This document shows, in pieces, positions 30,691-45,744 of a stretch of 64,000 nucleotides of DNA. The notes beneath the pieces were generated by a model. That model searched no databases. It was not told the DNA's origin and was given only the letters and a program-made list of their open reading frames with translations. This stretch comes from Polytrichum commune (Eukaryota > Streptophyta > Polytrichopsida > Polytrichales > Polytrichaceae): positions 42,562,440 through 42,626,439 of the forward strand of contig OX485807.1 in assembly GCA_950295325.1 (NCBI GenBank), read 5' to 3'. Positions within the stretch are counted from its first letter, which is position 1; each line of letters starts with the position of its first letter. The position numbers and the translations under genes were made by a program.

Positions 30691-31839
30691 AGATAAGTTG
30701 GAAATTGGAATATACCTTGCAGAGGTGACGCCTTTAGGGGAGGTAAAATGTGAGTAGCTTCACTCCTCACCAAAACTGAGGAACCATTAACCTTCACAAC
30801 TTTGGCAGCATGGATAAGTGAACCTTCTTCAAAAGTCATTCCTTCTGTGTTTACCACGAGTTGATCTAGGCATCCCTGATCCTATAACACACAAAGATGC
30901 TCCAAGTTAGCGAAAGATAGGATCATTTTTGGAACCGCAAATTTGTCGCAGATTTGTGGCAATTCCTAATCAAGAAACAAAGCTACATTCAAATCAATCC
31001 TTAACACTAGTAATTAGCTTAAATCTTCCATTATATGTCATACTAAACCATATATCCAATAGAAGTGTATATTGAAGCATCATTAACCAAATAATGTCAA
31101 GTTAGCATAAAGTTGTAAACCTGGGTTGGAGGTCCTATACTTCTCAAGGTTGTAGCAAAGTACTCTGTTGCTACTTTGATTTGCGCTCCGTTCAAATGTA
31201 ATCCAGACATAGTGATGTTTGTCTCTGAATGACAATCAAAACCCCAACATTAAATATTGTTATCTACTTTGTAAAAACATAAATATCTATCTATACCGTA
31301 TTGTTCCAAATAATTTTGGTGGGTTTTTCCAAAACAATAGATACATGACACCTTCAACATGAGCTTTCCAAAATTGTAATATCTAACTTCACTATAACCA
31401 TACACATGTTACTAGTATGAAACACTCATGATCTTCAATCCTTGATTAAACAAAGCCAGTGTGGGATACCATAGTATCACAAAATGGAGAATTGAACCAT
31501 AATATGAAGTACTAAGGGAAGTATAGGATGTAATTAACTTTGAGCTAAACAATATTGAATCCTCGGGGGGGGGGGGGGCAGTGTGTTAGAAAGTTAAGGA
31601 TATAGGTGCGAACAACCACTATTTTATAGGGGGGTATTACTTTCAATTTTTTTTTTCACATGCTATCATTATGTATATTTATACTTTGGGTTAATAGAAA
31701 ATTGGCTTGCATTACTTATAATTCCAAATTCCCTATTATTCCATACCCTATAGTACTTTAAAGATGTCCAGTGCCATTTTTGATACCCTATATTACTCTT
31801 AAGTCCAATTCACTACTAGGAAAACATGCGAAATATGAC

Positions 31840-32720
31840 TAGGTTTTGTGACTAAAAACGGGCATAAATGATCTTATGACTACTACCCATTTTAGTCATC
31901 AACCCAGTCATAACGGACAAGTCAGATTATGAAATATGACTACAGTCATATCTGCGGGCATACGTTCCCAATGGTGCGTTCCCAAAATATTTTTGGGTTC
32001 TCGATTCTGGGCAGCCCGTCCATTATAGTCACAAATATGTGACTCGTATTAGTCATAATTATTTGACTGCATTTAGTCAGCTTCTTCAACTCAATGACTA
32101 AAATGTCATGAAACGTGGTTCTCATAACATGACTGCCAGTGGTTGCAGAATATGATCGTGATGACTACAATTAGTCATTGATGTAGTTTTGAAATTCTTA
32201 AGGCTCGTCATCCATTCACATGTGTTGGTAAACATTCGAGATGTCGTGACTATATCCAGTAGTGTCGGATGACTACAACTAGTCACATTTTAAAACAAAA
32301 TACTGGTTTCTGACTGATTCTCGATTGTTTTCAGTCCAGAAAAAACGACTACTCATAGTCATCTACTTAAAAAATTTGCATATGCTTCCTGATCACTGGT
32401 CATCATTTCCAGTGACGTTACTACTTCGTATGTAAAATGGTAGTCAGAACTTTAGATACATTCAGGATCACGCACAACGATATGACGATATAGATGCGAC
32501 ATATGAGAACAATGTTGACAAAAATTGCAAAAAATCAACCTTTGTTTATATAGTCATTGCTTTCAAACATGTGACTAGAGCTAATGACTACATGTAGTCA
32601 GCTTGGGTCACATAACATACTCATCAGACCCAAAAAACTCACTGAACACTAAATGACTACATATAGTTTGCTAAATTCAATCGATCACTACAATCACAGT
32701 GAAGCTCTAATATCCACATT
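31840..32720. promoter_or_regulatory. left subterminal repeat region of the CACTA element
   Basis: Dense TGACTA and TAGTCA motifs on both strands (for example TGACTACAACTAGTCA at about 32272), often spaced as palindromic pairs. In En/Spm such subterminal repeats bind the TNPA protein; that role is inferred here. Confidence 0.7.
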
Positions 32721-32819
32721 GTTCTAACCAAATTGAATCGTGCCCTATTTTAGCCTAATTAAGTTCACATGGATGCTTTAGGAATTAGGTGGGCCACAAT
32801 ATAAAGCTGCCTACTGCTT

Positions 32820-35800
32820 GTCCCATTTTCGTGATCGGTGGGTCGTCCAAATCTACGCTGCAATAGAGAAGGTACTCGTCGAGTTTGTTCTTTGCACTTC
32901 CACTGAGACACACCCTTCTAGAATTGTGACCCCATGCAACTTGGACCCTTCCAGGTTAACCACTTTTCCAATACCAACCACCTCTTCTTCTTCCCCATCT
33001 GCAACACCCATGATCTTAACAACGTCGCCCTTGCAAAATTTCGAGGTCGATGAGCTTTCATCATTTTGTCCGCTTATCTGCAATAACACAAACACTTGTA
33101 AATAAAGGAATGAGGACTGCCATTAAGACTATTCATGCACTTTAAGAAAACACCAAATGTGCAGTGCGTTGGGTCCCCTTACCTTTGATGTGTTTTTCTC
33201 CTGGTGAGCCCCCATTTTGTCTTCTTTCTTATCTGGGGCCAAGACAACATGACTGCTTGATTGCTTCTGTTTTGCAGCTTGTCCCCGTGTCTTCCTCTGC
33301 TCAACAACTGGGGATTCCTTCGAATACCGGCTTTGCTCCCCCTCGTCCAAGGACCCCTTCTCTTTTCTCCTCCGCTCGCTGGTGGTACCCTTCTCAGGCC
33401 GGGGTATTATCTGCTCACCCCCCATGATTTCCAGCTTTTGACTCTTAGTGATCCTCCTTTTCTTCTCACCAGGTGGACGAGGCTTCGGGAGGGACGTCAA
33501 AGCAACGTCGTCCACATCTTCCTTCCCTTTGCTGACTTCTTCCATCTGCATGCCCTCTCTTCCATCAGAGATTTCTTTGGAATCCTTAGATCAACCATAG
33601 TCAGTCATGCAGTGGCAGTCAATGTTAAAGGGAATTTTCTGACTAAAGCTAGTCACAAATAGTCTAGAATGTGACTAATATTAGTCATAGTCTCCATAAA
33701 CTTCACTAGCACTAGTCATAAGCAACTCGAAACTTTGAGGTTCATAGGCAACGAGCACAAAAACACCTAAACTTAAACTGTGATTAACCATTGATTATGT
33801 GTCTCAGACCTCTGCAACATACCTTTTCACTGCAGACAACGTCGTCAATTTTCAGCTCATTCTTCATTTTCTCCCCTCCACTGTCATTTCCACGTTCAGG
33901 GACAATATTATTTTTGTCCACGTTCTCTGCTGAGCTGCTTGCAGCTCCACCTTCCACCTGTACATTTGGAGGAGGTACTGCGTCTGCTTGTGGAATCTTC
34001 AAGGCAGTTAATATCAACTTCAAGCTTTTCTCTAACCCATCCATGCGTCTGTGTATGTCTCTATCCAGCACCATTTTCGAGTGCATGCTGGACGGCGAGC
34101 TGCGATCAAATCTGCTTCCTCCTGGTGACATGGAGGAGACATGGCTGCCACCTGCCTTCCTAGTTACAGCCTCTTTTTCCTTTCGCATGGACAAGTCAAA
34201 TTCTTGCCGTGTTAGAGTCCTCTCCAATTCAATGGCCTGCACCAACATAGTCTTCCCTTGCAAAGTGGATCATTGAATCCTATCATGAAATATTAAGGTA
34301 ACATTGACTGCCTCAAACAAAGGTTGATGGTCCAAAACTTACCAGATTGTGTGCAAGCCCATCTGAGTCCCGAGCTGAGATCGATGGCCTCTTCAACTGT
34401 GTCCGGTTTTTTCTTAGCTTCTCCGCCTCCTTTACCTTCTTCTCCTCCACAATCAGCTTTGAGAGGCTCACCCAATGGTCTTGATGAATGTGCTTAGGCT
34501 TTGTCCTCCCAGCTAATAATGCCTTCTTCAGCTGATATCTCTTAGTCTTCAACTGGTTTTTCAACAACGAGTGGAATGCTTCCTCGGTGACTCGCCCAAG
34601 TCCCCCCTCGTAATCAAAGGTGTTGTCAACACGTTGCTTGATGGAGAGCAACATTGTTGTGCTGTGCATGTGGTAGTTGTCGACGCTGAAGTCCACATCT
34701 TGTGCGTGGCCCCGCAGGCACGTCATCCACAACGGCCTGTTTTGTCCGCAGGGATGGCCCTTCATGTCAACCTCCACTGTGTATCTCTTCTTGTCACGGT
34801 GTTCTCTTTCCCGAACTCCCAATTGCTGCTGCAGCTCCACCTTTCGTCTGCGACTGCGTAGCTCAGAGTCCTCTTTCCGCCATCACCGTGTCTTGCTCGA
34901 GCCTTTCACTTCCATGTCCTTGCCCATGTTGCGCACTGCCTCCAGAGTATTGTGCATGCGCGTGTTGTCCACCTTGTCGTCGACGTTGTGAACTCAACAA
35001 CTCCAACTTCTGCAACTCCAATTTTTTGATCTCCAGGTCAAGTGACATGGTTGCATCCACGTGGGCATCACCTTCTGAATCGGGAGCGCGATCATCAATA
35101 TTTGATGATGGAATTGCCACATCGTCGACTGGAGGTTCCTCTTCGTAAAAATCATGCTCCATTGAATCGCCTGGCCATGATGCCTGCGACATCTTCACGG
35201 CAGGTGTACTCGTGGGGCGTGGTGTAGATTGGGTGACGCGCTTTGGAACCCTGAACTCAGGGGTGGATTGGGAAGGACATTTTCTTACAATCCACTGTAC
35301 TGGTTCTGACGTCTTCAGCTCCTGGACATGACATAAACATTGAATTTTGGGGAGTAGTTTGATTTTGGGGAGATGCTGATTACAACTAGTCATAGTTGTA
35401 GCAGTTGTGACTATAGGTAGTCATATGTTTGGTATACATGACTACAACTAGTCATACTGCAGACAGATATGACTATATGTAGTCAGATTTTTGGTATATA
35501 TGACTACAACTAGTCATATTGCAGACACATGTGACTACAGATATTAGAGTTTGGTATTGCATGAAACTACAACTCACATTGCCTACAGAAACAATGTATC
35601 CCAAGATGTGCCTTGATCAGTGTTACCTTTCCCTTAACTCGTAGAGACAGTGTGGCTGGCTTTTCCCCCTCCTCTGACTCCGTATTCATGTCGTCTTCAG
35701 AAGGCTCCGAATCAGCAACACCCTTTTCCTCGCAGACTGACCTATTTATCCTCGCAGATCTCCTCGTACTTGAAGGTGGGTTGGAAGGCTGTGTACACCG

Positions 35801-36442
35801 CACAGATTGCCGAGTGGACCTCCGCTTATGTGGAATTGGAGCCTCCCTGGAGTCCACATACATGTCAGACATCACATTTGCCATGCGATTCAAGACATGA
35901 CTCGAAATTTGTGGCAATCTAGCAACTCCCTGGAATACGTCTTCCACATGTTCGTCCAGCAAGTTCGCCACCAACATCATTATCTCCGGTACAGAGGGTG
36001 GATCATGATTAGGCATTTGTCCCATTAACAACCTATGCTGCAGCTAGAGGAGGAGTTGATAAACAAAATTAGGGTTTAGTGAATACTCAGAAGAGCTGGA
36101 GCTGCGTCGCTTTTTCCCTCTCTCAGGTGCTTTCGGAGGCTTCGAGCGCTTTGCACCCGCCACCCCTGCAGCCAAGTTGGTGATGCCCAACTCTCGAAAT
36201 CGAGCGAGATTGCGCTCGATGTTTGCTTTTCGCTGTGCCTCGTAGGCGTTTGGCACTTCGCGCTTAAGGGCAGCTGCCCTCGACCTCACCGCCTGCGCCT
36301 CCGCCTCGGAGTCCTCGCTACTGGAGCCAATTTTGTTGTCGCCGCCGCTGTTGCTGCTCGACTGCTCCGCTTCGGACGTTGCCGACTCCTTACTCTTCGA
36401 GCTGCTGCTCTTGCTCTCCGTCGACCACTTGGACTTCGCCAT
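32820..36442 (-). CDS. tnpA-like protein with Transposase_24 domain (CACTA), disrupted
   Basis: Exon 1 (36442-35627) starts MAKSKWSTESKSSSSKSKES and is Ser/Glu/Lys rich. It continues in the same frame through one TAG (36044-36046) into a segment with RMANVMSDMYVDSREA. Exon 2 (35321-34343) holds a Glu/Leu coiled coil, then the Ptta/En-Spm Transposase_24 pattern (KNQLKTKRYQLKKALLAG, HIHQDHWVSLSKLI, EKLRKNRTQLKRPS). It needs one base removed near 34875-34880 to join its two frames, and 979 nt with a consistent phase supports a single insertion. Further exons lie at about 34263-33830, 33551-33180 and 33090-32820 (GVTILEGCVSVEV end). In CACTA elements this protein type binds subterminal repeats and aids excision. 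The gene is now broken. Confidence 0.75.
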
Positions 36443-37203
36443 GGCGGCCGCACACCCCCTTGCCGCGAAGACGACGTGAAGGTACCGCTTCGGCCGTGGA
36501 TGTCGCCATTTCTCTGCCTCCCTGCAACTATAAGGTAAGACCTACACAATGGCACCAAAAGAAATGGTTTAGTCTTGGCTGCGGGGATGTAGAAGCGAGT
36601 GACAACGCAATAAGACGGAATTAGGGTTTCATCGTTAATTGGGGGGGGGTGCTCATTGATTACTGAATTTTGTAGTCATACTAGTCGTCACAGACACATG
36701 GCTGTCTATTTAGTGTCAGACTTGTGACTTGTGTGACTGCATGACTAAAGGTAGTCATATTTAGGACTACATGACTAAATCTAGTCAGATATAGGGACAA
36801 AGTGACTACAGGTAGTTATATCACTACTAGAAAATGATGTCCAAATCAACAAGTAACCAACTATTTTTGGTTGAACTGTGTACGTCAATGACCATTTCAA
36901 CAAAATTCTAATATTTTGTTAATTTGAACAAAATGAGTGTTCTTATTTATGTTAGATTACGTATTGTACCTTTTCTTCGACAAATTAATGGGCTTTTAGA
37001 TTTGGATATGCTGATGTGACGATATTCAAAGGAAATAATTATTTTATTTTATTTTTTGTATTTACATAAAGGTATAAAGTTCTAACCCTGTACCACATGC
37101 GCTGATGTTTTTCATCCATCAATTTTTTAATTTTTTCCTAAGGTTTAATACCATTTGTATGGAAATGATCATCAAAATATGAAAATATGAACTTCTGAAA
37201 AAT

Positions 37204-37655
37204 TACATAAATAGCGGTTTTTACAAAAAACATACTCAGAGGTATAATGTTTTTACATAAATAGCAGTTTTTGCAAAAAAACATACTCAGAGGTATAATG
37301 TTTTTACATAAATAGCAGTTTTTGCAAAAAACAAACTCAAAGGTAAAATGTTTTTACATAAATAGCAGTTTTGCAAAAAACATATTCAAAGATAAAATGT
37401 TTTTACATAAATAGCAGTTTTTGCAAAAAACATACTCAGAGGTAAAATGTTTTTACATAAATAGCGGTTTTTGCAAAAAACATACTCAGAGGTATAATGT
37501 TTTTACATAACTAGCGGTTTTTGCAAAAAAACATACTCAGAGGTATGATGTTTTTACATAAATAACGGTTTTTGCAAAAAACATACTCAGAGGTATAATG
37601 TTTTTACATAAATAACAGTTTTTGCAAAAAACATACTCAGAGTTAAACATACGCA
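37204..37655. repeat. 50-bp tandem array, nine units
   Basis: Units begin TAAATAGC(A/G)GTTTTTGCAA and contain ACATACTCAGAGGTATAATG, then TTTTTACA. The GTTTTTGCAAAAAAC core is self-complementary. The array lies in the inner CACTA element, 3' of the dioxygenase gene. Confidence 0.85.
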
Positions 37656-38073
37656 AATAAGAATAGCGGTTTTTAGTAATTAAAAAGGTATTAATCTTCA
37701 AGTAGGGTGTACAAATAATATATGTGTAAAATATATTCAATCAACTGAAATAATATAATTTCAACAAGTCAAAAGTCTTTATTTACTATCTTCAAGCTCA
37801 TAAAAGTAACAAAATAAAAAAATACTATACAATTAATATTTGGAATTATCTTAAGTTTATGTGAACACTATGTTTAAAAATAAAGATAAGTGAAGATTGA
37901 CTCTCAAAACAAAACAAATATCATAGTTTGAAACTTAAATTTAGATTGTACTATCGTTTATTTGATAAATTTTTAAATATCTATATTCAAGAAGAAATTT
38001 CACCAATGTCTTTTGTATCTTGATTACAAACAAAATATTCAATTTTTTTAATAAATAGTATTATGACCCAAGT

Positions 38074-39193
38074 TTAGTACTTTTCTACTAGTACCAAAAA
38101 TCCCAATTTTTTTAATGCTTTTAAACCTACTTTTAAAACAATGGGCTTTACTAAGACGGCAACTCTATATTGCTTATACCCCGTATTTTCAGTTGTACCA
38201 TGGTTTATTTTTGAAGCATCAAAACATATTAAAGTCCCACGCGTTGGACGAAAAAATAATCCATAGTCCTTCATACGGAATTGTGCCCGTTCAATTCGAA
38301 AGTGGTCTGGAATCTCTGCAAAATATGTTGAATTCAATTACAACATCAGAAACTAGTGAATCCAACAATTTTTTAAAAACTTCTAGTATAACATACGATG
38401 ACATAATTTTATACTAGTTTTAAAATAAATTATGTGATTGAAAATTACCTTTATGAACCCAAAATATAAATCCGGAACCTCCATCTTTGTCATCTATATG
38501 GTCAGAAGACCAACAGTTCTCTGTCACGCTCATCGTTGTGAATGGAGTATATCCAATACGACCCCACAGAGTCCCCAATTTTTTCCGAACTAAATTTTTC
38601 AAATCTTAAATTTAAGATGACATTTGATTATTCAACACGTCGAATACTCTAGTCGTTGTTCGTGCACTTAGTGTGTTTAAATCTGCAGCTGAAATTTTCA
38701 TATTTTTTTCTTTACCTTTTCTATTAGTTTGCTTATATATGCCAAATCCTTCAGCGTAGCAATTTCTCCATCCAAAAACAATCATATCCCCACCACTCTT
38801 TTCCTTACCTCTTTCTACTATTCCTCCTGTAGTATATAGTATATTACATTCATTGGTCAATATGTTTATCAATTCATTTGAAAAAAAATTGAAATCAATA
38901 ATTACCACTACTTTTTCATTTTCAACCAAAATTGCAGAAGTAGTAATTTCAGTGAAGACATCTAAAAAATCCACCTTTTTAGATACATAGATCACATGGC
39001 GAATTCCAATTGGAATTGAAATTCCTTGTGATCTAAACTTTTGTATTACAACCTCATTCGGGGTTGTAACATTTTTAGTATCATATAATATGGATTTAAC
39101 AACCATTTTAATATGTTTTTTAGATTTATAATGAAACTCAAACTGTGCTTGAGATTTCATTATTCTATTACATACATCACACTTATACTCCAT
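38074..39193 (-). CDS. C2H2 zinc finger plus 2-oxoglutarate/Fe(II) dioxygenase-like protein, transposon-borne
   Basis: The ORF 39193-38612 starts MEYKCDVCNRIMKSQ, a U1/JAZ-type C2H2 finger (C-x2-C-x12-H-x5-H), then about 150 residues including GGDMIVFGWRNCYAEGFGIY. The same frame continues, after two TAA codons 9 nt apart (38612-38606), with SSDHIDDKDGGSGFIFW (H-x-D iron site). It then crosses a clean 133-bp intron (38448-38316, GTAATT..TTTGCAG) into RPTRGTLICFDASKINHGTT (distal iron His) and KQYRVAV (2OG-binding Arg). The stop is at 38074. The HxD, H and R elements in order and the spacing fit the double-stranded beta-helix dioxygenase fold. The GWR and HxDxKD style recalls TET/JBP-like enzymes linked to transposons in fungi and algae, which is inference. 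The two TAA codons mean decay or a short unrecognised intron. Confidence 0.7.
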
Positions 39194-39594
39194 AATAAGT
39201 CAACTATTAAGGTATCAGTTTGATTTTTTTATAAATGAATAAACCAATAAATATGAAATAAATAAAACAAATAAAACAAATGTAGAAATATAACAAGTTG
39301 AATAAAAAACCCCTTTGTATAGCATCAATAATCATTTCAATCAAGTAAAGTAAAATAAATAAAATAAAAAATTCTTTACCGGACTTTTACATTTATCGGA
39401 TTTTTACATTTATCACAATATGTATTTTTATGTCCTTGATGATCTGCTCTTGGTTAAACTGAACAGGAAAATCATGATCTATGCACTCAAGTCCAAGAGT
39501 GTTTCATCACCTGTTTTGGAATCATCAAGTCCTCCCTCTTTCATTTCCTTGGTAATTTTCTCTCGCTCAATTGAATCACCATTGAATAGAGTAG

Positions 39595-39740
39595 GAAAAT
39601 ACCGAATCAACAAAACCAAATTAACTAAAAGACCGAATCAACAGAACCAAATCAACAACCCCAAATTGATTTCTGACCGAGTCAACTCGACCTAATCAAC
39701 AACCGCAATCAACAATTTTCAGTTGAATTTCTGTTGGTTT
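39595..39740. promoter_or_regulatory. right subterminal repeats of the inner CACTA element
   Basis: At least five copies of (G)AATCAACA/ACCAAATCAACA-type motifs are clustered next to the right terminus. Related TCAACA/TTGGTTGAA motifs lie within 70 bp of the left end. They probably bind the transposition protein. Confidence 0.65.
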
Positions 39741-40024
39741 GGTTACAAAAATTCTAGTAGTGTATGTGAGCAAGCATGACTAAATGTAGTCAGACTTGGA
39801 ACTGCATGACTCAATGCAGTCAGATTTAGTGACCACGTGACTAATAGTAGTCCACGTAACATGAATGGCTATATCCACAACATTTCACTGCATTGAGTTT
39901 ACTCTTGGCTGCTCCTCCCTAAAATAGAATGTATTGTAGCAGTTTATTCCTAAAGGTCAATGTATTGTTGCATGTTCTTAAAAAAATTGTGATTATGTTG
40001 TCTAGGTGGACCACATTTTAGCCG

Positions 40025-40222
40025 ATGGATCCGACATCACGGGAGGAAATTTTGCAATTGCAACTGTGAGACATCGAAGAGAAAGAAGCAGACCGGCAAG
40101 GTCTAACAAGTTACCCTTGCCCATGTAAGAAATACATGGGTACAAGAATATTGGATCGGAAAACCATCCGCAAACCTCTACGGAAGTACAAGCGAGATCC
40201 AGAATTTAAAAGATCAATCCTG
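40025..40222 (+). CDS. transposase-associated N-terminal domain exon (CACTA), with premature TGA
   Basis: It starts MDPTSREEILQLQL, meets a TGA at 40067-40069, then continues DIEEKEADRQGL and YPCPCKKYMGTR.. TIRKPLRKYKRDPEF up to a good donor (CTG, then GTATGC). The Cys pair followed by a T-x-K/E-x-LxxYxRDP pattern resembles the transposon-associated domain at the start of TNP2-type proteins. The TGA probably replaced CGA (C to T at CpG). The next exon is uncertain: either the SET ORF or the TNP2 core. Confidence 0.55.
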
Positions 40223-40470
40223 GTATGCTATCGTTACTATTTTATGATATGTTGGATGTGAATAATATGGGAAACTAATGCAACTGCCTTACTTTGTTGG
40301 AATGAAACGTGTAGAAAACACAGAGTCCTATTCTACTGGCCGCAACAACTACTGCATTAAAGTTAGTAATTTTAGCTACTCTACCGCTTCGAAGGAGCGG
40401 AGAGAGTAGTTCGGTTCCCAATCAGCAAGTGTCCGTGGATACTGTCCACACATATAGCTACCATGGATAG

Positions 40471-40911
40471 TGGCGCATAGGCCCCATCCCAAAACTCAAA
40501 CCCTTCACATTTTGGGATAGAAAGTGGGAGGTTAGGGTGTCCACACATCCCCACATGGGATGGGGCCTATATGCCATGGAAGCAGCCAAAGCCGGCAATG
40601 AGTTACTGCCATTTGTTGGGAAACAACTATCAATGGCAGAATTCAAGAGTATGTGTCAAACAAACCACCGATTTCTGAAGTATGCAATACACGTGAAGAA
40701 AAATGTTTATCAGGATGGAGATGTATTGAATGCAAATGTTGCAGGGTTCATTAACAGCTCTATTGGAAGAGAGCATTTAGGAAATGTACTTTGGGAATAC
40801 ATGTCATTGCCTACTCCTTGGAATCCAAAAACTTGGGGGTATATCATGACTATAGCAACACGTGACATTGACGTGGGAGAGGAACTATTCACATATTACC
40901 CTCTAAACTGA
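40471..40911 (+). CDS. SET-domain ORF inside the CACTA transposon
   Basis: The frame is open from 40471 (after TAG at 40468-40470, which could be an AG acceptor) to a TGA at 40909. It reads KWEVRVSTHPHMGWGLYAME (start of SET with GxG), NHRFLKYAIHV, ANVAGFINSSIGR at the position of the usual N-H-S-C motif, then IMTIATRDIDVGEELFTYY, which matches the conserved ATRDIxxGEEL-x-xxY end with its Tyr. About 146 residues, close to a minimal SET core, without visible pre-SET or post-SET Cys clusters. SET proteins are usually protein-lysine methyltransferases. Here NHSC is degenerate (NSS), so activity is doubtful. It shares the strand of TNP2 and lies 346 bp before its core. It may be a separate gene or an exon of a longer transposon protein. 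Confidence 0.72.
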   Translation, partial: WRIGPIPKLKPFTFWDRKWEVRVSTHPHMGWGLYAMEAAKAGNELLPFVGKQLSMAEFKSMCQTNHRFLKYAIHVKKNVYQDGDVLNANVAGFINSSIGREHLGNVLWEYMSLPTPWNPKTWGYIMTIATRDIDVGEELFTYYPLN

Positions 40912-41257
40912 CAGGACGTCCGTTTTGTAGCAATGATCTCAGTAACCCATGTGACTAAATTGTTGTAATCCTTAAGTGCTCAATGACTGCTGAGTCTGAT
41001 AGTTCACTCTTAGGGGTAGTTGTAGTCATTGTTTTTGCGTTGATGACTAACTCCTAGTCATTTTTTTTACAGAGATGACTAAATTGTTCTCACTCATTTT
41101 GCACAAATGAGTAAATCGATGTCACTATTATAGTATGGACGACTAAATTGCAAACAGTGTTACCAAATAGATGACACAAGTATTTAGATTCATTTTCTAT
41201 TGTTACATTATCGTAAGCAATGCAAGTAACGTCACGTACCTATAAATAATTGGGGGG

Positions 41258-44200
41258 TTGTTATTATGTTGTATGAAGTCTGGAATATTGTACGAAACTG
41301 GGCAAGATTGCCAAGACCTCCACGAACGTCATGAAGCGCAGGGGAAAATCCCGTCCATGCAAACCGACTCTGAGGAATTTGAGCTTACACGGATGGTCAC
41401 AGAGTGCTTTGCACGATACGACAACATCCCTCCCGCTACCTATGATGGAATTGATGAGGACGAAAATGACAGTGCTTTGGAAGACGATGACCTCAATAAC
41501 GTAGATCTTACGACAGTCATTGAGGAATCAAACATTCCCCTATACGAAGGCTCGCAAACAAGGCTGTTGGTTGTAGTGCTTCTCCAATTCAATTGTTTCA
41601 CGGTATTTGGAGTTTCAAACACTTATGCAGATGAAATCTTGAACGTGATCACCAAACTTCTCCCCAAGGGTAATAAACTGCCAAAATCCCACTGGGAAGG
41701 GAAGAAATTCCTACGGAATTTGGGGCTCTCCTACAACTCCATCCATGCATGTAGAAACGGGTGTTGTTTATTTCGACGTGAGTTAGCAGAGGCCTTGAGC
41801 TGTCCGAAATGTGGGGAGATGTGATATATATCAGACAATAATACAAGGGCAGCGAAGATACTAAGGCATTTTCCACTTATACCCCGTCTGTTGCAAATGT
41901 TTCGATGTGCCCGACTTGCACAGTTAACCAAGTGGCACACATCAAGGAAAGAAGTGGACGGTAATATGGAGAGTGTTCCAGACTCTAAAGCTTGGAAACA
42001 CATCAATGTTGTGTATCCGGCATTTGCCTCTGAGGAGAGGAACATACGACTAGGGATGGCCCTAGATGGTGTGAACCCTTACTCAACCCAATCATTAAGT
42101 TACTCAACGTGGCCAGTAATAATGTTGAATTACAACCTTCCTCCCTGGCTCATCACGAAACGTTTCTTTCTAATGTTGGTTCTTCTAATCCCTGGAAAAG
42201 AAAGCGTCACTTCGGAAAACATAGATGTCTATTTGGCCCCACTTATTGAAGAGTTGCAGCAACTGTGGCATGGTGTGAATGCCGTCGATGTATCGACTGA
42301 CGGTGAAAACAAGCATTTTGTCCTCAAAGCAATTTTGATGTGGTGCATTCACGATTATCCTGCGTATGGTCTTGTCTCTAGGCAAGTGACAAAGGGTTAC
42401 AAAGGATGCACTGAATGTGGCCCTAATGTTAGTACTCGTCGATCAACTGCACTGGGCAAAAATTTATATTTGGGTCATCGGAGATACCTAACAAGGAATC
42501 ACCCGTATCGACGACTCCAAAGAGCATTTGATGGCAAAGAAGAAAATAGAGCGCTACCTTGCCCTCTTACTAGTCGAGACATTGTGCGCCACGCTAATGC
42601 AAGGGAGAAATGGCTAAATGCCTCCAACGAAAACAGACATGGGGGGGTCGACGATCCAATGCACACAACTGGAGTGAAGAGGTTGTCCAGCTTGTTTCAT
42701 CTTCCGTATTGGCAGGTCAGTGTACCATAGCCATTTCCAGACCTTACACTAATTTACATTATTTCTGCTATTTGACTGTAAAACACTATATGTGATCAAT
42801 ACATGATTATCTGCACTCAGCGCATGACTATATGTAGTGCAGAAATTAGTGGTGCTAGTCACATGTTTGGATCCCCTGACTCGGTAAATAAAATATGACT
42901 AGTGCATAGTCATGAACACCAAACCCACGACTACATTTGTACGAATACACACAAAATGCCGTAGTGAGGAGATGTGCATAATTGCTCTAACATGAGTCGA
43001 GCACTGCTTGCAGGCTCTTATGATCCGTCATGTGTTGGATCCAATGCATTGCGAAAAAAACTTGTGCGAAAACATCATGAAGACAATATGGGGATTGAAA
43101 GATACATTGAAAGTAAGACTAGACCTTAAGGAGGCATCGATACGTCCCGAGCTCCACCCGAAACCTGGTGGAAATGACACCATCATACTACCAGTTGCTC
43201 CCTATATGCTGTCAAAGGTGGAGAAGTCAAAATTTATCAAAACTATCCGCAACCTGAAGACCCCCAGCAACTACGTGGGGCAGTTGTCGAAGAGGATAAC
43301 CGTTGATGGAGACCTTCGTGGGCTTAAGTCACATGACTACCACATAATGATGCAGCAAATTCTTCCTTTATGTGTGCGAACACTCCTAACAAAGGAAGTT
43401 CGTGCGGCAATAATTCGTACAAGTAGGATCTTTGTGCGATTATGTGCAAAGTCTGTGAATCCATCTACAATGGAAGACCTGATGAAAGAAACTGCAGTTA
43501 CTATGTGTATGTTGGAGAAGGTTTTCCCGCCGGCATTTTTTGATGTCATGTCACATCTGCCGATTCACTTAGTGCAACAATTAGACATTTGTGGTCCGGT
43601 TCACACACGTTGGACGTACCTTGTTGAACGGTATATGAAAACGTTGAAGGGCTACGTACGGCAACGAGCACAACCGGAGGGGTCGATGGCAAGAGGGTAT
43701 ATCATGGAGGAGACACTTGGATTTTGCACCGAGTACATGCAAAACTGCACTGTGACATCACGCCGTGTATGGGACGACAAAGAGGAGCCAAGTACAAATG
43801 ACGAAGTGTTACAAGGGAAGGGGAGACGGCGCGTATTGTATCCGCAACTGCAACAGTGGATTCATGAGTTCGTGCTCAACAACGTTGAAATACTTGAAGA
43901 TTACAGAAAGTATGCACCTAAGCAATATGATTGTTAGGTAGTAATACATGGCAAACAGAGCACTATGTCTAGTCATCGTTTTTCATTTTAGGATTAGCTA
44001 TGAAGACGAGACATATGAAACAGTCAGAAAAGTGAAGAAGACTACTAGGTATAGTCACAGTTATGAAGAAGATGACCAACATAGTTGTACATGTTGTAGT
44101 ATTCTAACAGTGTATGGAAAGTAACGGTCTTGAGGTGATGTGTATATTGCAGGCGGTATGCCACTGAAATGACTAGACGAGAAGAGGCCAGAAAAGCCGT

Positions 44201-44909
44201 TCAAAGATGAAGCAAGGGAAGACGCGGAGATTATCCCATTGATGTACGACAAGAATCCTTCAGTACGTGGTTCCAAAACGCAGTGACCGAAGACACTGCG
44301 AGGGGGAATGATGTGTCCGAGGATGTACATGCACTGTTGTTGCCTCCTAGACGAGAAGCAAAGACATACAAGGCGATGTATGCATATGGCAATCATATAC
44401 GAGTACGGGGAGCAGAAGCATCTATGTCCACATGTGACAGTGGAGTAGCAGCTACGTTTCTCCAATCTTGTCATTCTAGTTCTAGTGACAAGAACATGAG
44501 AACAACAAATCTAGAGTATGTAGGGTGGGTGGACGAAATTATCAGCGTAGACTACGGGAAATATGAAGTAGTGGTGTTGTATTGCACATGGGCACAAGCC
44601 AACAAGAGGGGAGCTCGGGCTACAATGAAGTGCGACGAATATGGATTCACATTGTTCAGATTTGATCGACTGATTCTATATTCAGCGGGATCTTTTGCAT
44701 TTCCTCTTCACGTACAACAAGTATTTTTTGTAGACGACGAGGAGAACAGTGAATGGAAGATTGTTTTGCGACGACAGCCACGTGGTGCAAGAGTCGAGTC
44801 AAGCGACGGCAGAAGGCATGAAATGCAAAGTGTGCAGTTAGGTAGAGTAGAGGAGCATGCAGGCCTGCAGCCCAACATGCAGTACCATGGACAAGGAATC
44901 GGACAATAA
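41258..44909 (+). CDS. TNP2-type CACTA transposase with C-terminal DUF4218 and DUF4216 regions, disrupted
   Basis: Exon 1 (about 41258-42715) shows an acidic lead, KLPKSHWEGKKFLRNLGLSY and HACRNGCCLF, then a TGA at 41822-41824. The same frame continues with RHFPLIPRLLQMF, GMALDGVNPYSTQSLSYSTW, LIPGKESVTSENIDVYLAPL and IHDYPAYGLVS, the Transposase_21 (TNP2) core with its Asp residues. Exon 2 (from 43014, acceptor TTGCAG) reads RHVLDPMHCEKNLCENIM and then a DUF4218-like part (THWTY-like HTRWTYLVERYMKTLKGYVR) to a TAG at 43935-43937. A later frame (44200-44909) carries the DUF4216-like GWVDEIISVDYGKYEVVVLY. TNP2 catalyses cut-and-paste transposition in the nucleus. The internal stops mean this copy is inactive unless rescued in trans. 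Confidence 0.85.
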
Positions 44910-45479
44910 TGATTTTAGCAGATGGAAGAGACTTACCACCCGAGATGTAAACAAAAAGTTGGTTGTTGTAGAGAAGGATCTAGAGGTGGGATATGACCAA
45001 CTATCAAACACACTATGAATGGTAGTCATTTATGTCATTGCCAAGATATACAATTGGACTTGCCTTCCAACCAACTTCAGCGTTACCGATTGAATAAAGA
45101 ACATGCGTGTGCAGTGGCTCAAACGAAAATCCACATCGACAAGTATTTGAACAATGTGCAAAGAGAATTGTAGTGGTTGTAGATAGTTTGAGTTTGCAAT
45201 TGCAAAAATTTCCATAACATCTGAAGTCAAAAACAGATGGGAAAATGCTTCCAAGAAAAAAAGATTGGAATGAAAAACACTTCAAATAACACTCATATAA
45301 GTTCACAAAAATTTAAATAATTTTAAAAAAATACTATAACCCTAAGGAGAAAACCTTAAAGGAACAAAATAAAATCACGAGAAGAGATAAACTGAAGGAA
45401 AGAAAGAAGAAGTGAAAGAATAAATTGAACATAAACAAAGGAAAAAGATTGCATTAAAACCATGAATGCCCCACTCCTA

Positions 45480-45744
45480 AATCCCCCTACAATTGGCTGC
45501 CCAAAACTATAGTCACCTAACTACTAATTCTAGTCATATGGCTGCCCATGAGAAAAACAATTGGGAGAACACGTTCCCTACGTAGTTCCCATTCAGGCCC
45601 CCTGAAAATACGACTAAAATCATAGTCATGTGATGACTATAGTCATTTCTAGTCACCAAAGTGGTCACTGATGACTGCATTCTAACCAGTAGTCATATCC
45701 GGTCATAAGGCCCTAGTCATATTTCGCATGTTTTCCTAGTAGTG
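45480..45744. promoter_or_regulatory. right subterminal repeat region of the CACTA element
   Basis: Repeated TAGTCA/TGACTA motifs (for example CATAGTCATGTGATGACTAT at about 45622) end in the terminal inverted repeat. Confidence 0.7.

Follow-up and report, generated by a model that had tools for sequence, protein, structure and literature searches.

A decayed TET/JBP-like gene with an N-terminal zinc finger, carried by CACTA and LINE elements of a land plant

Genes of the TET/JBP superfamily are known as cargo of mobile DNA in fungi, where Kojima (2025) described them in 11 lineages of DNA transposons, EnSpm included; the sections of that paper available to us discuss the lack of TET-carrying retrotransposons and name plants only in other connections (PMC12730594). 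In Chlamydomonas, the enzyme CMD1 modifies 5-methylcytosine (5mC) in a vitamin-C-dependent manner (7cy4-7cy8; PMC7854593). Active demethylation in plants is ascribed to ROS1-type glycosylases and not to TET enzymes in the accessible part of a review, which leaves it open if further members of TET_JBP depend on different cofactors (PMC11065753). Among the literature matches listed (titles and abstract openings, mostly of non-subscription papers), none dealt with a TET-like gene carried by a plant transposon or a LINE. A land plant as host and a LINE as carrier appear to be new; transposon-borne TET genes as such are known from fungal DNA transposons.

Here we describe such a gene in a stretch of 64,000 nucleotides from Polytrichum commune (the window). 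We hold with moderate confidence that the window contains a dead copy of a transposon-borne TET/JBP-superfamily gene, nearest to CMD1 and with a U1-type finger at its N-terminus, whose product would once have modified 5mC so that its carriers escaped silencing, and which would have passed from a LINE to a CACTA element.

The features of the locus are given in Table 1. The spliced gene on the minus strand comprises 328 codons and a stop (329 with the stop), and two of the 328 are in-frame TAA codons. A preliminary description of the locus had reported an N-terminal U1-type finger, an H-x-D site and a distal His in NHGT, and all of them are present as placed (H232-I-D234 and N-H287-G-T in this copy). 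The single clean intron reported there is likewise present; its GT start is retained in 13 of 14 copies of the gene and its AG end also in 13 of 14. The finger follows the pattern CxxC-x12-H-x5-H and matches the Pfam families zf-met (E 1e-7, residues 3-27) and zf-C2H2_jaz (E 4.2e-7). We refer to the window gene together with its 13 other copies in the genome as family 1. The two nearby TAA codons, which had raised the suspicion of decay, are both in frame, and no unbroken full-frame copy was found among the 14 as extracted.

Table 1. Features of the locus in the window, and the open frame of a second gene family elsewhere in the genome.
Feature	Position	Strand	Remarks
Outer CACTA element, 13.9 kb	31811..45744	.	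termini start CACTACTAGGAAAACATGCGAAATATGACT; target-site duplication (TSD) ATT
Inner CACTA-ended element, 2941 bp	36822..39762	.	TSD TAT at 36819-36821 and 39763-39765
50-bp tandem array	37203..37674	.	inside inner element; native to this genome's LINE family
Exon 2, ends at stop	38074..38315	-	distal H287 and Arg299
Arg299	38166-38164	-	exon 2; private to window copy
Distal H287	38202-38200	-	exon 2
Intron, 133 nt, GT-AG	38316..38448	-	
Exon 1	38449..39193	-	zinc finger, RGK motif, H232-x-D234, W245
W245	38461-38459	-	exon 1
H232-x-D234	38500-38492	-	exon 1
Two in-frame TAA codons	38606..38614	-	decay; at 38614-38612 and 38608-38606
Zinc finger	39187-39113	-	exon 1
SET-domain ORF, outer CACTA	40471..40911	+	E 1.8e-7; between inner element and tnp2 gene
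tnp2 transposase stretch, outer CACTA	41825..42730	+	Transposase_21, E 9.9e-73
DUF4218 part of CACTA transposase gene	42996..43937	+	E 3.3e-38
DUF4216 part of CACTA transposase gene	44211..44909	+	E 9.7e-7; 29.7 vs 30.6 bits, just below cut-off
Family-2 open frame	L019:2850-4064 (C4:8187000-8193500)		flanks L036, L037

Among the Pfam oxygenase families, Tet_JBP (PF12851) and then the Tet-like family PF20515 lead the ranking for the window gene. With the exact splice, Tet_JBP matched at E 7.6e-8 and PF20515 at 3.5e-4; when an X stood for the junction, the values were 1.6e-7 and 5.5e-5. All of these matches lie below the Pfam cut-off. AlkB, JmjC and 2OG-FeII_Oxy were absent among the seven Pfam families listed up to E 10, where the HMMER filters discard most matches above about 0.1. 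The HMM search proposed in the preliminary description therefore speaks for Tet_JBP, with no AlkB or 2OG-FeII_Oxy match listed, but the best score in family 1 (32.2 bits) stays below the curated cut-off of 34.9. In alignment A1, which holds 6 of the 14 family-1 copies and one member of a second family (L019), Tet_JBP matched six of the seven sequences at E<0.01, the seventh, without a match, being L019. A search of the whole genome with the Tet_JBP model returned one match, under the cut-off.

The best solved structure for family 1 was algal CMD1 (7cy4) with a profile E of 1.2e-4, and one family-1 member lacking the Arg matched CMD1 on its own with E 1.3e-4. The next structures followed at 0.019 and 0.72, so that CMD1 is the only strong match. 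The further alignments cover 4 of the 14 family-1 copies (A5) or open-frame stretches only (A2-A4 and A6). Judged by these profiles, family 1 is a TET/JBP relative with CMD1 as its nearest solved structure. Together with the copies in other transposons described below, the Pfam and CMD1 matches bear out the earlier proposal of a transposon-borne gene that joins a finger to a TET/JBP-like domain.

The 14 copies were found in a genome of 408 Mb, assembled into 64 contigs. Seven large contigs measure 42-78 Mb, and the copies are spread over six of them, with none on C2. They stand in three contexts: eight share outer-CACTA sequence (the window copy, L008, L010, L012, L013, L015, L016 and L017), four lie in a LINE (L005, L007, L011 and L014) and two, L006 and L009, have a context unlike either and only the gene in common with the other copies. 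In this third group, the shared part consists of the coding sequence with its intron and a few bases past start and stop, and our impression is that the ORF pieces beside the two copies resemble fragments of host genes.

The inner element of the window begins with CACTACTAGAAA and finishes with ATTCTAGTAGTG, has TAT on either side, and pairs 11 of 12 terminal bases in its inverted-repeat termini. In the ORF list no transposase ORF is visible within it. Its first 279 bases recur at at least 7 places with at least 93% identity, the window counted, and its first 78 to 132 bases at at least 33 further scored places with 72-80%; 40 of 110 candidates were scored, which makes these counts lower bounds, as are those of the other genome searches (40 of 3160 and 117 of 1916 candidates scored). 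This recurrence across the genome assigns the inner terminus to a dispersed CACTA family. Given the 13 other gene copies and at least 33 further places with at least the first 78 bases of the element, neither gene nor element is a product of chance.

The CACTA ends and the TAT duplication of this 2.9-kb element had been recognised before, whereas its nesting in a 13.9-kb CACTA element had been missed. The outer element, whose terminal sequence is CACTACTAGGAAAAC..., is flanked by an ATT duplication. Three of its relatives lack the inner element (L021, L022 and L023). L021 has both flanks side by side within a short repeat array; the same array borders the right flank in L022 and L023. All six right ends of the inner element that we found continue into the flank of the outer one. 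From the insert-free relatives, the outer sequence around 8 of 14 copies and the six right ends, we conclude that the inner element inserted into the outer one, after which the compound multiplied; there is no sign of the 2.9-kb element having moved alone with the gene. A stretch at C2:56709255-56711305 has the inner right end and the outer flank with no gene match, and represents a gene-less remnant of the compound.

The outer element also contains a SET-domain ORF. Compared with the older relative L021, its differences at codon positions 1, 2 and 3 number 2, 1 and 10 of 81, which we read as a sign of purifying selection. Comparisons with young copies, by contrast, gave 13, 3 and 4 (B10, around L010) and 5, 2 and 0 (B12, around L012) and no sign of selection. 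The outer CACTA lineage may once have had a working histone methyltransferase gene.

The LINE that carries four copies has matches to RVT_1 (E 1.8e-21), an endonuclease (3.8e-7) and RNase H (2.9e-13). All four LINE copies have a (TCTA)n tail in common and differ in their flanks; the one in L005 is 5'-truncated, and a target duplication looked for there was not found. The gene occupies the 3' part of the LINE in antisense orientation, after the last ORF of the element and before the tail. Three sister LINEs (L038, L039 and L040, all those fetched) are without the gene, and in them a 50-bp array joins straight onto the 3' end that succeeds the gene in L007. The array inside the inner CACTA element is this same LINE array. 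Since an array native to the LINE is present in the CACTA element, the gene was probably gained by the LINE, and a small CACTA element then took gene and array from such a LINE. Transfer in the reverse direction would require a separate route by which the other LINEs acquired the array.

A protein search with the window gene led to two more places with 27-28% identity and thereby to a second family, with at least nine places in the genome. Family 2 has a single-exon frame of 404 codons, probably starting at residue 25, with two putative zinc fingers (Pfam matches below the cut-offs) and a TET-like core. Two copies, L019 and L030, are fully open, which makes this family directly testable. Its flanks are long and 97-98% identical over the eight places fetched, and family 2 is hence a dispersed repeat. 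The profiles of the two families match each other in hhalign with E 1.7e-9 and a probability of 96%. On its own, family 2 matched neither Tet_JBP (searched with L019) nor CMD1 (searched with one protein and with alignment A3). Differences at codon positions 1, 2 and 3 are 2.5, 3.9 and 2.7%. AlphaFold2, run for family 2 only and on shallow alignments, returned a mean pLDDT of 30.3 for the protein (6 rows) and 34.6 for its core (5 rows), so that the double-stranded beta-helix typical of TET/JBP enzymes is a putative fold here.

In a 22.5-kb stretch of family 2, inverted repeats of about 200 bp have their outer ends 16.8 kb apart; a clear target duplication around them was not seen. An ORF of 632 amino acids in this stretch had no Pfam match, and we take its look to be DDE-like. 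Elsewhere, a decayed sequence at L020:3017-3409 (C2:1128016-1128408) matches PF20515 with E 1.1e-19, which exceeds the cut-off, in contrast to the matches of both families; by this match it is a third TET-like relic.

Decay is advanced in family 1, and Pfam recognises the finger in just three of the seven members of A1. In pairwise comparison, the copies differ by 7.6, 7.0 and 7.0% at the first, second and third codon position and by 6.0% in the intron. With codon positions differing equally, the protein shows no sign of selection once amplification had taken place. Fixed differences between the contexts, counted by hand, are 8, 5 and 11 at the three positions, too few to decide on earlier selection. 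Divergence is 6.8% within the CACTA group, 6.2% within the LINE group, 6.8% between them and 7.6-7.8% to the third group. C-to-T and G-to-A changes have hit 6.5-6.6% of C and G and other changes 0.3-0.9%; as a share of sites, these changes amount to 6.7% in CHH, 6.6% in CHG and 4.9% in CG. Past methylation in every sequence context would leave such a pattern, so the copies were probably silenced in the end. In steps of 500 bases, positions 37000-40500 of the window differ from the surroundings of L010 and L012 by 4.4-8.3% in the TET region and mostly by 1.6-4.6% elsewhere. Between the LINE copies (L007 with L028 against L014 with L029), the TET region differs by 5.8-7.9% and the remainder by 1.0-5.4%.

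Neutral divergence is what one would see if a TET-like gene, of host or foreign origin, had been caught by chance by the LINE and the CACTA element and multiplied as a passenger without aiding them. The antisense position in the LINE, the inner element that nested once and was thereafter carried by the outer CACTA, and the faster divergence of the gene region than of its carriers agree with this as well. However, each of the two divergent TET-like families resides in dispersed repeats, and the presence of the family-1 gene in at least two carrier classes means that chance capture must recur. None of the copies recovered could be identified as a host gene, in searches that give minimum counts and with L006, L009 and L020 in unassigned contexts. 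We consider a mere passenger to be a serious possibility, though clearly less probable than a gene that helped its carriers.

If the gene did help them, the intact protein would dock on nucleic acid via its finger, flip out 5-methylcytosine and modify the base by Fe(II) chemistry. This modification would keep the carriers expressed, and they would be copied before silencing set in. The gene would have moved from the LINE to the small CACTA element and from there into the large, SET-carrying one, after which the compound multiplied.

The active site bears on this reading. Residue equivalences with CMD1 are based on alignments, and its numbering is that of PMC7854593. His345, Asp347 and His397 of the CMD1 triad correspond to H232, D234 and H287 in family 1 and to H289, D291 and H343 in family 2. 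Likewise, Asp350 and Trp358 correspond to D237 and W245 (D294 and W302 in family 2), Ser335, Thr337 and Thr399 to S222, T224 and T289 (S279, T281 and T345), and Ile356 and Phe371 to I243 and F261 (I300 and F317). In family 1, H232 is retained in 14/14 copies, D234 in 12/14, H287 in 12/13, W245 in 14/14 and D237 in 12/14; L005, which covers neither H287 nor codon 299, is excluded from the counts at these two positions. T289 is replaced by Ile in L017. In family 2, the triad is present in all eight aligned copies, and W302 in all three family-2 members of A6. The position of Val342 is Ser or Cys in the families. Clear counterparts of CMD1 His249, Phe416 and Arg418 were not found by alignment. 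R128 is a candidate for Arg244, with no His five residues on, and Lys and Ile stand in the places of Phe416 and Arg418, given Gly299 in register with Arg410.

The Arg named in the preliminary description is indeed present in the window copy, but it is private to this copy. Of the 13 copies that cover codon 299, 11 read GGA (Gly), L017 reads GAA (Glu) and the window alone reads AGA (Arg). This comparison identifies the Arg as the product of a G-to-A mutation, the type of decay seen most often here. Against Tet_JBP, the window copy scores 31.2 bits, compared with 21.9 and 26.2 for two other copies, and its match extends further than theirs, across Arg299. All eight aligned copies of family 2 have Gly at the same position. 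In CMD1, Trp358 occupies the place of the Arg that binds 2-oxoglutarate (2OG), Ser335, Thr337 and Thr399 contact vitamin C, and both threonines are required for activity (PMC7854593). With Gly in place of the clamp Arg in both families and the Trp of CMD1 retained, ordinary use of 2OG by these proteins is doubtful. A plain 2OG-dependent TET enzyme is hence not what the family predicts, the Arg being a mutation of decay.

Loss of the 2OG clamp in both families would also suit a protein that kept the oxygenase fold, lost catalysis and countered silencing by binding DNA, and the zinc finger of family 1 and the putative ones of family 2 could serve such a role. Plant VANC proteins are thought to act by binding rather than by chemistry. 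But the triad, unneeded without catalysis, is retained in most family-1 copies and in 8/8 of family 2, which makes this alternative improbable in our view. A pseudogene of an ordinary host 2OG-Fe(II) enzyme (AlkB, JmjC or DOXC) taken up by a transposon can be set aside as highly improbable: HxD...H is common to the whole oxygenase superfamily and thus not specific to TET/JBP, but Pfam puts the two TET families first, with no AlkB, JmjC or 2OG-FeII_Oxy among the families listed up to E 10, and 11 of the 13 further copies lie in CACTA or LINE contexts, the opposite of a host enzyme without copies in other transposons, which the preliminary description had named as the outcome that would speak against it.

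WRKY genes mark plants. Our search for them yielded 34 exon matches, distributed over C1, C2, C4, C5 (the contig of the window) and C6, and zero in 14 control genomes, in agreement with the land-plant host named earlier. The modest WRKY number and the seven large contigs would suit a moss. On the basis of the WRKY matches, which include the window's own contig, and of gene copies on every large contig but C2, we reject a fungal contaminant. With regard to a viral origin, a scan of viral_contigs with A1 gave 194 pattern-matching stretches and no confirmed relative; PHROGs gave nothing for one family-1 copy, and the family-2 matches there had E 0.019 and 0.16.

Overall, a TET/JBP-superfamily gene on land-plant transposons, a LINE among them, extends the fungal story of transposon-borne TET genes to plants and to retrotransposons, and it bears on alternative cofactors of TET_JBP proteins. 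It suggests that the mobile DNA of plants, like that of fungi, acquired tools against its own silencing marks. Ascorbate is abundant in plants. A bolder and rather unlikely proposal is that land-plant mobile elements carry CMD1-type enzymes that modify 5mC with ascorbate or another non-2OG co-substrate, having exchanged the gene between a LINE and DNA transposons and employed it to counter silencing; such plants may then contain, or once have contained, a 5gmC-like base.

The outer element resembles plant CACTA (En/Spm) elements with tnp2 in its CACTA termini, 3-bp target duplication, Transposase_21, DUF4218 and DUF4216, and differs from them by its SET ORF and the nested TET-like element. To our knowledge, VANDAL elements have no oxygenase domain. 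What they have in common with the elements described here is a proposed countering of their own silencing (PMC12730594). The HxD...H triad is common to HsTET2, NgTET1 and family 1. Asn1387 of HsTET2 and Asp234 of NgTET1 touch the base and have their counterparts in Asp350 of CMD1 and D237 of family 1, whereas their Arg 1896 and Arg 289, which bind the C5-carboxylate of 2OG, are replaced by Gly in the families here (PMC7854593). With CMD1, both families have ten identical active-site and pocket residues in the alignment. They differ from it in having Gly where Arg410 of CMD1 points away, and CMD1 is not described as transposon-borne in the available text of the paper (PMC7854593). The fungal TET/JBP transposons of the PU, AG and PE types are alike in that an oxygenase sits on several transposon lineages, EnSpm/CACTA included, and has passed between them; compared with what is accessible of their description (PMC12730594), the present case stands apart by its land-plant host, the N-terminal finger, the LINE carrier, Gly at the canonical Arg and an inner element without a transposase.
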